Positions 57,075-59,927 of a stretch of 64,000 bases of DNA are shown here, in pieces. Origin of the DNA: an uncultured Candidatus Nemicrothrix sp. (GTDB taxonomy: Bacteria > Actinomycetota > Acidimicrobiia > Acidimicrobiales > MedAcidi-G1); assembly GCA_913055915.1 (NCBI GenBank), contig CAJXKL010000005.1:1-64000 (forward strand), read 5' to 3'. Under the pieces are notes generated by a model. It made no database searches and had not been told where the DNA came from. It saw nothing but the letters and a program-made list of their open reading frames with translations. Position 1 is the first letter of the stretch; each line of letters begins with the position of its first letter. The translations under genes and the position numbers were made by a program.

Positions 57075-58022
57075 TCAGCCGCCCTGGGGCTGGTTGTACT
57101 CCACCCAGGCGTGGCCACTGCGTCCATCATCGGTGGTGACGGCCATGAGGCCCCGCGGAAGCCTGGATTCACGACCGTCGTCAGGGTTGACGAGCAGCAC
57201 AGGCGCCCAGCCCACTGGATCCAGTTCGAACGTGACGTCACCGAGTGTGACAATCCCGCTGGCGGGAATGCCATCCGGTCCCAATGCGGGCACCGATGCC
57301 ACCTCGTAGCTACCCACCAGGCCGGCGGGGGTCGATCGGTAGCCGATGCCCACCTCACGGTCCGCAGCGACCACCACATGGAAGCGTTCCCCGTCATCCA
57401 GGCGGCCCGAGAACCAGATCCACCCGTGGGCCCACCAGTCGCGAACGGCCCACGAGTGGTCGCGTTGACCCCAACCGTCCACCCTCACCAGCTGGTCACC
57501 AACCGTCACCTCGCCGGACACGCGGCACGGAACCTCGTACCTGGGGGTGAGCCCGTAGTGGAATGCCCACGGCAGAGCGCCTTCAGGGGCCTCCTCAGGA
57601 CCATCCGTCTCCCACCCGAGGTCAACGCCCACCGCCACCCTGTCACCGCGGATCCCTGCGGAACCGCCACGGTAGGCATCCGCCGGATCGGCCACGGCGA
57701 CGCCGTAGGCCTCCACGTTGACGCTGAAGTGCTCCAACGGCTCATCGACCCGCAGTTCGGCCCACAACCCGGCTGCCCTGACCTTTAGTTCGGCGGGTGC
57801 CGGAAGGGGCACCTCGTGGTCCACCACCAGGACGGTGGGTTCATCCTCGCCCACCAGGCAGCACCAGACCCAGGACACGCCCAGGTTCGGATAGAGGCCC
57901 AGGCGCACATAGCCGCCCGTGCGGCCGTCGGAGTCGAACCAGTCGAGGTAGTAGGACTCGTTCCAGAACAGGTCCGGTTCCGGCTCGTGGCGGTTCTCAT
58001 CCCCCAGGTCTGGAACTCTCAT
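57075..58022 (-). CDS. Hydroxyneurosporene-synthase/AttH-like beta-barrel protein
   Basis: 315 residues. The C-terminal half has the GWGQRDHSWAVRDWW block typical of actinobacterial DUF7064/AttH-related proteins (carotenoid-type CrtC and tocopherol cyclase relatives), with an N-terminal LFWNESYYLDWFD block. All-beta lipocalin-like double domain expected; function not established. ATG 58022 is chosen because upstream residues look like shadow. It is the last gene of a three-gene operon with a protein of unknown family and a phosphohistidine domain. Confidence 0.6.
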   Translation of the reverse strand: MRVPDLGDENRHEPEPDLFWNESYYLDWFDSDGRTGGYVRLGLYPNLGVSWVWCCLVGEDEPTVLVVDHEVPLPAPAELKVRAAGLWAELRVDEPLEHFSVNVEAYGVAVADPADAYRGGSAGIRGDRVAVGVDLGWETDGPEEAPEGALPWAFHYGLTPRYEVPCRVSGEVTVGDQLVRVDGWGQRDHSWAVRDWWAHGWIWFSGRLDDGERFHVVVAADREVGIGYRSTPAGLVGSYEVASVPALGPDGIPASGIVTLGDVTFELDPVGWAPVLLVNPDDGRESRLPRGLMAVTTDDGRSGHAWVEYNQPQGG

Positions 58023-58035
58023 CTGATACCCCGAT

Positions 58036-59142
58036 CTACGTGTACAAGGGGTAGGGCACGTCGTCCGGGTTCCGTTCCGGGGGATCAGCATCCGCCGTCA
58101 CCAACCCGTAGAGGTCCTCAGAAGTGTCGCGCGGACAGGTCCAGTCGATGGTGTCGGCCACCCCGGCAATTTCAGCAAAGGGCCGAAGGAACGTGAAGTA
58201 GACGTAGGCACCGCAGGCGATCTTGTCGTCCCGGGACATGGCGACCACGTCCCTGTAGTGCTGTCGCTGTGCGAGCCGCGCCACACCGGTCAACGCCGGG
58301 CACTCCTCGTCAGGTACCGGCACCAGGGACCCGCTGTCGGTCGTGAACAGCCCGAAACCCGTCAGGTGCTCCAGGTAGTCCTCCGGTCTGGTGATCGCCG
58401 TTCCGAAGTCGTTGACGGCCACCTCTACCTCCGGATCCAGCACAAGGGCCGCCGTCAGGCCCGAGTACGGCATGTCGGAGGCAACCCCTGACCACCAAAA
58501 GTCACTGGGCCCCAACCTGTGGTAGTCGCGGACGAGCATTATCCGACCGTCGGGCAGGCGGTACGGCCCGGTGTCGCCGTGGCCCACCCTGGTGTCGAAG
58601 TAGAGGAGGAAGAGGTGATTGATGAGCGTGGCGTTGAACCGACGGACCAACTCCAGGCGCCCATTATCGAGGGGCCTGGCCCCCTCTGCCAGGGCCTCGA
58701 TCGTCGGCCTGTCCAAGACCTCAATCCTGTTGCCCGCCTCCGCCGCATGGAGATACCCACCACCCCTGTACGCGTAGGAAACCCGTGCCCAGAAGTCCAG
58801 AACGGTGTGGGCACGGTCAACCGAGTCCAGGGACGGATCAACCATGTTCATGACGTTGCGCCCAAGTAGCCAGAAGTTGGCTATCCCCCACAGGAACACT
58901 GAGTTGACCTGGCAACCGGGCCTCCGGGCAGCCTCCCCAATCTCCTCCGGGGACATGACTGCTGTGATGGCCTCTACTGCATCCGGGTACCTGTGGAAGG
59001 CCTCCACCACGGACACCGCCACATACGGCGTAACGGGAACGAGTTGTGAGGAGTACCCGGTCCGCTCCGCCACGAGCCGAGCCGACACAGGGTTGATTGC
59101 CTCCAGGAAGCCGTTGACCCGTTCAACCCGACCGGCGGCCAT
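58036..59142 (-). CDS. Unrecognised 368-residue protein
   Basis: No signal peptide or membrane helix is evident. It is rich in aromatic residues and Arg/Asp. Notable stretches are WGIANFWLLGRNVMNMVD, YFDTRVGHGDTGPYRLPDG and MLVRDYHRLGPSDFWWSG, which look like a globular alpha/beta enzyme or binding protein. It does not recall a known family. ATG 59142 overlaps the stop of the phosphohistidine-domain gene (TAATG), implying coupled translation; the AttH-like gene follows 13 bp later. Probably works with both. Confidence 0.65.
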   Translation of the reverse strand: MAAGRVERVNGFLEAINPVSARLVAERTGYSSQLVPVTPYVAVSVVEAFHRYPDAVEAITAVMSPEEIGEAARRPGCQVNSVFLWGIANFWLLGRNVMNMVDPSLDSVDRAHTVLDFWARVSYAYRGGGYLHAAEAGNRIEVLDRPTIEALAEGARPLDNGRLELVRRFNATLINHLFLLYFDTRVGHGDTGPYRLPDGRIMLVRDYHRLGPSDFWWSGVASDMPYSGLTAALVLDPEVEVAVNDFGTAITRPEDYLEHLTGFGLFTTDSGSLVPVPDEECPALTGVARLAQRQHYRDVVAMSRDDKIACGAYVYFTFLRPFAEIAGVADTIDWTCPRDTSEDLYGLVTADADPPERNPDDVPYPLYT

Positions 59143-59495
59143 TAGCTTCCACCGACCACCCTGACGATGCCCACCTCGCCCGTACCATCCAGTTCAACGC
59201 AGGCACCGGTGGTTGGTTCGTCCGTGATCTCGGCAGCTACTACGCCGGGAACCCGGAACTCCCGGCTGATGATTCCTATGTGGCTCCGGATGGTTCCACC
59301 TGTACAGACCACACCGGCCAACTCGTCGAAGATCGGAGAAAGAAACGTTGCACCGGCATCCCTGATGACGGCCACAACCCCCTCAGCACCGGAGGCCATG
59401 AGATCCAAGACCTCCTCGGTGCCTTCCAGTCTCTGCCACACCCCACGAGTCGGTTCATAGTCGAACGTCTTTTGACCACGGGCGATGACCTCCAC
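59142..59495 (-). CDS. Stand-alone PEP-utilising-enzyme swivelling (phosphohistidine) domain
   Basis: About 117 residues. The segment VCTGGTIRSHIGIISREFRVPGVV holds the phosphorylated His of the PEP-synthase/PPDK mobile domain (TGG...SH), and VELDGTGEVGIVRVV is the domain end. Normally this domain is part of a protein of 500-900 residues, with nucleotide-binding and PEP-binding domains; here it is alone. Start uncertain: GTG 59495 is the best candidate, as the frame upstream is not family-like. First gene of the three-gene unit. Whether it is phosphorylated, and by what, is unknown. Confidence 0.7.
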   Translation of the reverse strand: MEVIARGQKTFDYEPTRGVWQRLEGTEEVLDLMASGAEGVVAVIRDAGATFLSPIFDELAGVVCTGGTIRSHIGIISREFRVPGVVAAEITDEPTTGACVELDGTGEVGIVRVVGGS

Positions 59496-59537: not shown

Positions 59538-59927
59538 GTGACCGCTGCCGCCCACCTCTCGCCTGAGTGGATAGCGACCCTCGACGAGGCCGCCGCCCGA
59601 CACCCCGAGCTTCCTGCTGGCATGGGCGACCTTCCGATCACCATCGGGTATCTGATCGCCGACGGTCCCTCCTGGTACCTGGTGATCGGTGCCGACCGGA
59701 TACGTGTGCTTGCCGGAAACGTGTCATCCCCGGACGTGTCGTTCAGCACAGATGCTGCGACCGCCACAGAGATTCTCGCGGGCCGCACCGATCCGCTCAG
59801 AGCGGTTGTCGACGGGGACCTCGACATAGGAGGTGACCCTCGGCTGCTCATGGCGAACCGGGATGTACTGGAAGCCGTGGGCGACCTGTTTGCTGCCGCC
59901 CGGGGGGACCTCGGTGAGGGCCGGTAG
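59538..59927 (+). CDS. SCP2 sterol-binding-domain-like protein
   Basis: 129 residues from a GTG. The pattern DGPSWYLVIGADRIRVLAGN then DVSFSTDAATATEILAGRTDPLRAVVDGDLDIGGDPRLL is the SCP2-like fold that binds lipid or acyl-CoA. Divergent from the swivelling-domain operon and convergent with mdh. No signal peptide. Ligand not known. Confidence 0.8.
   Translation: MTAAAHLSPEWIATLDEAAARHPELPAGMGDLPITIGYLIADGPSWYLVIGADRIRVLAGNVSSPDVSFSTDAATATEILAGRTDPLRAVVDGDLDIGGDPRLLMANRDVLEAVGDLFAAARGDLGEGR

Follow-up and report, generated by a model that had tools for sequence, protein, structure and literature searches.

HpeHI, PpsAB and CreHI are two-component phenol dikinases, and the swivel histidine of HpeHI is essential (PMC12167813). 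VadK (Rv1127c) of M. tuberculosis, which shares an operon with its partner Rv1126c, autophosphorylates on the histidine of its swivel domain (PMC13400623). RPH (NF041857) combines ATP-grasp, swivel and substrate domains in a single polypeptide, and PPDK, PEP synthase and PTS enzyme I each contain a PF00391 swivel with its histidine.

The window, by which we mean the whole 64,000-nucleotide stretch of DNA analyzed here, encodes a trio of proteins, SWIV, M368 and an AttH-like protein, that can be set beside these systems. SWIV has the same PF00391 swivel and histidine as PPDK, PEP synthase and enzyme I, but the trio lacks their ATP-grasp and PEP-binding domains. With HpeHI, PpsAB and CreHI, the module shares the swivel histidine domain and, in its relatives, an ATP-grasp partner on a separate polypeptide; some relatives also lie in catabolic operons with biotin carboxylase and a ligase. 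It differs from them in that the swivel is a separate small protein, M368 has no detectable HpeH-type homology, the dikinase of the relatives is PPDK-derived with a swivel of its own, w201 and the AttH-like protein are added, and a dedicated dikinase is missing from the window genome. The dikinase of complete relatives resembles VadK in having an ATP-grasp domain and a swivel without a PEP domain. A partner gene of about 200 aa stands beside both, w201 occupying on the M. avium and M. branderi plasmids the position that Rv1126c has beside VadK. SWIV and M368 are not described for VadK. RPH follows the same ATP-grasp, swivel and substrate-domain logic, although its substrate domain is not detectably related to M368.

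Searches of open-licence papers for stand-alone swivel domains, DUF7064/7065 and dikinases in Acidimicrobiia returned nothing relevant. Within that literature, the module seems to mark a branch of small-molecule dikinases not described so far, in which the phosphohistidine carrier is a protein of its own and the substrate subunit has no recognized fold. It occurs in two phyla and is associated with catabolic plasmids.

Three linked genes in the window

The features of the locus are as follows:

57075..58022, minus strand: AttH-like protein, 315 aa, with DUF7065 and DUF7064 (PF23212, PF23213)
58036..59142, minus strand: M368, 368-aa protein of no known family, proposed substrate-binding partner of SWIV
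59142..59495, minus strand: SWIV, stand-alone PEP-utiliser swivel (phosphohistidine) domain, 117 aa (PF00391)
59280..59282, minus strand: catalytic-type histidine of SWIV, CAC codon, motif CTGGTIRSHIGIISREF

As the first-pass annotation had described, the genes are tightly linked; all three are on the minus strand. The SWIV stop (59142-59144) overlaps the M368 start (59142) by 1 nt in a TAATG, and a 13-bp gap separates the M368 stop (58036) from the start of the AttH-like gene (58022). The SWIV frame is open upstream to a GTG at 59603; the GTG at 59495, which gives the 117-aa protein originally annotated, is the better start because the alignments with most homologues begin near residue 36. 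An SCP-2-like gene (59538-59924, plus strand) is divergent from SWIV, with 42 bp between the two starts, and this neighbor is retained in most of the window genome's family.

SWIV matches PF00391 with an E-value of 2.2e-7 and 30.8 bits (cut-off 23.1), in keeping with its earlier description as a swivel domain, and what it matches in searches are swivel domains lying centrally or at the C-terminus in PEP synthase, RPH-like and PigC/RedH proteins. Its histidine, residue 72 of the 117-aa protein and 108 when counted from the upstream GTG, is invariant in a 22-sequence alignment, in which SWIVs carry G-T/S/A/D before the histidine where canonical swivels have G-G. The pattern H..[ILV]..R is present in all 94 distinct SWIVs, kinase-less genomes included. 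The altered G-G motif, together with the loss of the kinase in the window's family, would suit a relic in which the SWIV fold is kept as a stabilizing subunit of M368 and the activity of M368 is independent of phosphate, but the constancy of the histidine even in kinase-less genomes makes this reading very improbable.

The first-pass annotation had also noted that the partner kinase and PEP domains were missing. This is correct for the trio, since Pfam finds no ATP-grasp or PEP-binding domain in the three proteins, but not for distant relatives, whose operon holds a dikinase (see below).

M368 has no match in Pfam, NCBIfam or PDB sequences, in line with the first-pass annotation, which saw no recognizable fold in it, and none of our searches made it a known enzyme with a fixed function. 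Its conserved positions are Arg, Trp, Asp and Gly-Pro; R185, G192, P193, R205 and W217 recur in 99% or more of 94 sequences, and no Lys, His or Cys is conserved in the 22-sequence alignment. This pattern suggests an anion- or substrate-binding protein rather than a nucleotide kinase. The ATP-grasp or PEP-binding fold that the first-pass annotation proposed to look for in M368 finds no support in its sequence, and we rejected these and other known enzymes on the grounds of the database results and the lack of an invariant Lys, His or Cys. Nor did we find support for M368 as the N-terminal part of PRK08296/RPH-type proteins. HHalign gave no match, with a probability of about 0.1% for the M368 profile against the window genome's five RPH-type paralogues, and no RPH chain was among the matches of the PDB sequence search. 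The AlphaFold2 model of M368, built from a 7-row alignment, was poor (pLDDT 60.5); Foldseek with this model returned nothing at E 0.001 or better, and its best VIA-align result (Z 4.3 over 102 residues) is uninformative.

In the third protein, PF23212 (E 2.9e-17) and PF23213 (E 1.9e-15) both exceed the gathering score (the two domains score 57.8 and 63.6 bits), as in AttH and DUF7064-DUF7065 proteins, which agrees with its annotation as AttH-like. A two-domain lipocalin-like fold as in AttH is putative; the profile match to the solved AttH 2ich is weak (E 0.029), and the AlphaFold2 model is unusable (pLDDT 44.9). In 39 of 77 loci the gene stands no more than 1.5 kb from M368, and many sister genomes in the window's family have a truncated copy or lack it; it is a frequent companion, not an obligatory one. 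DUF7064/7065 proteins over the Pfam cut-off adjoin the module on Methylibium, Paraburkholderia and Rhodococcus sp. 008 plasmids, and one under the cut-off does so in R. oxybenzonivorans (L134). The lipid-modifying role that had been suggested for the trio was weighed and dropped, since nothing in the analysis speaks for it.

SWIV and M368 as a conserved module

SWIV lies within 2.5 kb of M368 in 91 of 93 distinct M368 loci, with a median gap of 57 bp. Of the two exceptions, L051 is truncated where its contig stops, and L139 has no recognized SWIV nearby. SWIV comes first in 80 of the paired loci and M368 in 8, and the two are on opposite strands in 3. Chance synteny was rejected as an account of the trio, because order and strand vary and yet SWIV and M368 remain together; with 91 of 93 loci paired, the association is not due to chance. 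SWIV-M368 is a real conserved module.

M368 homologues were found in 44 of 100 relatives and in 39 of 296 Acidimicrobiia genomes, as well as in a few other Actinomycetota, and no relative was found in the viral contigs searched. The paired loci span Acidimicrobiia, other Actinomycetota and Pseudomonadota. The trio itself recurs across numerous families, as well as on plasmids of other classes, and this co-occurrence of its parts bears out the proposal of a small phosphotransfer module, not described as such in the open-licence papers searched.

Tandem SWIV-M368 units are found within single loci, four in G279 and three in G292 (both Acidimicrobiia). Two further loci, L134 and L136, combine three tandem units with a single dikinase, so that SWIV-M368 looks like the substrate-specific part of the system.

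Dikinases and other partners in relatives

In distant relatives, SWIV and M368 are encoded in one operon with w201, a protein of about 200 aa with a winged-helix N-terminus, and a PPDK_N/PEP-utilisers dikinase that is VadK/PPDK-like. This arrangement was observed in L098, L100, L153 and four Rhodococcus plasmid loci; G279 is among the genomes that have it, and the plasmids belong to Rhodococcus oxybenzonivorans, R. pyridinivorans and Rhodococcus sp. 008. A dedicated PPDK_N component is present in the distant relatives L098, L100, L134, L136, L137 and L140. These dikinases consist of ATP-grasp and swivel domains, usually without a PEP domain. The L098 protein (582 aa) has no PF02896/PEP-binding domain and scores 656.8 bits against NF004531, whose cut-off (456) can also be passed by full-length PPDKs; the L100 protein (851 aa) has a weak PEP-binding domain.

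The components are also found fused. SWIV is joined to M368 on Rhodococcus plasmids (L134, L136), and a 793-aa SWIV-M368-w201 triple fusion is present in R. opacus B4. Dikinase-w201 fusions occur in three Acidimicrobiia (L149-L151) and an AMP-ligase-w201 fusion in L147. Among the 296 Acidimicrobiia genomes, w201 is present in 36 of 39 that have M368 and in 45 of 257 others (Fisher p 2.5e-20, a value that overstates independence because the genomes are related).

Two Rhodococcus operons and the L098 cluster contain an AMP-ligase, biotin carboxylase parts, a thiolase and a tyrosine-phosphatase-like protein. Such a set is of the same kind as that of the Hpe pathway, which reportedly phosphorylates a phenolic ketone first. 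SWIV, M368 and w201 also occur together on plasmids of Methylibium PM1 and Paraburkholderia. On the plasmid of Methylibium petroleiphilum PM1, an MTBE degrader, the order is DUF7065, M368, a 152-aa protein, SWIV and w201 (L133, 10426-22869), a few kb upstream of a set of mutase, MeaB and B12-binding genes.

Plasmids of M. branderi (L146) and M. avium (L148) encode a VadK-like dikinase, w201 and a DUF7065 protein but no M368. Where SWIV and M368 would stand, they encode an RPH-like substrate-swivel protein of 503-543 aa, which M368 does not match. This protein carries its swivel at the C-terminus, as do the RPH-like paralogues in the window genome. The swap suggests that SWIV and M368 stand in for a substrate-swivel protein like the characterized HpeH (PMC12167813), and it is the main ground on which we call M368 a substrate-binding partner. 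The two Mycobacterium plasmid sets are a candidate acceptor set for VadK-type dikinases.

Judged from the sequences, SWIV would most likely be the carrier, with M368 as the protein that binds the substrate. Our preferred reading, held with moderate confidence, is that together they make up the acceptor side of a small-molecule dikinase with several components, a variant of the HpeHI/PpsAB/RPH kind. Gene order, co-occurrence, fusions and the conserved histidine are observations; beside them we infer a flow of phosphate, roles for M368 and the AttH-like protein, and the nature of the substrate, as follows. In the complete form, a PPDK-derived, VadK-like dikinase (ATP-grasp and its own swivel) would be loaded from ATP, with w201 helping, and the phosphoryl group would pass from the dikinase histidine to the SWIV histidine. 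Charged SWIV would swing to M368, where a bound small molecule would be phosphorylated. M368 would do the job of the rifampin-binding-type domain in HpeH, PpsA and RPH, with which it has no detectable kinship, and the AttH-like protein probably binds or alters a hydrophobic substrate or product.

Several points count against such a relay. The dikinase carries its own swivel, which makes a second one formally redundant; the G-G before the SWIV histidine is altered; and HpeH-like proteins have no detectable homology to M368. The operon neighbors suggest where the phosphate of VadK-type orphan dikinases may go, namely to a swivel and a substrate-binding protein, so that the acceptor becomes testable with a few purified proteins.

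The winged-helix N-terminus of w201, and its divergent position beside SWIV in many Acidimicrobiia, could instead point to a regulatory or scaffolding complex, with the swivel as a phosphorylation sensor instead of a catalytic carrier and w201 as the output; VadK has been described as a regulatory kinase (PMC13400623). We consider this improbable, as fusions join w201 with the dikinase, AMP-ligase or SWIV-M368, and as w201 is also present in sister genomes that lack M368 and stands in operons whose context (ligase, biotin carboxylase, thiolase) is catabolic.

Possible phosphate donors in the window's own lineage

The window genome (G000; 2.1 Mb, 94% complete) encodes one PPDK_N protein, a full-length PPDK. 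A dedicated ATP-grasp dikinase, with PPDK_N and a swivel but no PEP-binding domain, is absent from it. Its w201 (about 220 aa; G000:C9:68906-69562, or L115:8906-9562) has no Pfam family over the cut-off and is unlinked to the trio, lying between dapA and dapB. In a scan of 30 family members, PPDK_N was absent from 15 of the 21 M368-positive genomes, a count to be read with the caveat that metagenome assemblies may miss genes; 7 of these 15 are at least 92% complete. The dedicated dikinase has been lost in the window's own lineage. A relay fed by ATP therefore cannot be the whole story in these 15 genomes, and the loss raises the question of what charges the invariant histidine without an ATP-grasp donor.

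A PEP-binding domain was present in all eight genomes tested among the 15. At five loci (G008, G009, G010, G015 and G024), it is part of a half-PPDK of about 510-540 aa, in which the swivel and PEP-binding domains remain, ATP-grasp is lost and the motifs, including the histidine, are intact. Half-PPDK loci were recorded in seven genomes: L126 (G015), L127 (G024), L128 (G009), L129 (G010), L130 (G040), L131 (G008) and L132 (G034). The gene mostly adjoins dnaG and glycyl-tRNA synthetase, with dnaG present wherever the flank is visible. The half-PPDK is a possible PEP-dependent phosphoryl donor.

With a full PPDK here and half-PPDKs in sister genomes, SWIV may be fed by PPDK or by PEP, or may exchange phosphate between metabolites; in the window's lineage, SWIV-M368 is probably served by PPDK or acts as a phosphate exchanger. 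One alternative to the ATP-fed relay is that SWIV-M368 is PEP-driven or transphosphorylating in this lineage and needs no ATP-grasp, its phosphate coming from PEP or from a second metabolite. SWIV would be charged by the PEP-binding domain of PPDK (half-PPDK in the sister genera), or would shift phosphate between two metabolites in the M368 pocket. The genomes without PPDK_N and the intact half-PPDKs are consistent with PEP charging, and HpeH alone, which shifts phosphate from phenyl phosphate to another phenol, offers a parallel for the exchange. We nevertheless regard this alternative as unlikely, since the window genome retains a full PPDK and the half-PPDK is tied to SWIV by co-presence alone. 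To our knowledge, moreover, PEP charges a separate swivel domain only in PTS-like enzyme I chemistry. Its more specific form is likewise unlikely, namely that in the window's Acidimicrobiia family SWIV-M368 is an ATP-independent phosphotransferase, whose free swivel, charged by half-PPDK and PEP or by a phospho-metabolite, passes phosphate to a small molecule bound in M368. If true, it would be a soluble, non-transport analogue of the PTS made of dikinase parts.

The 2.1-Mb genome also encodes five RPH-like substrate-swivel proteins, with no dedicated ATP-grasp partner for any of them. Together with PPDK, they account for its six PF00391 matches besides SWIV. They are about 580-615 aa long and lie at 17.9 kb of C28, 41.8 and 60.0 kb of C10, 0.2 kb of C31 and 20.6 kb of C25 (L066-L070). 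Three of the five match RPH- and PRK08296-type NCBIfam models, and one, searched against the PDB, aligns with RPH.
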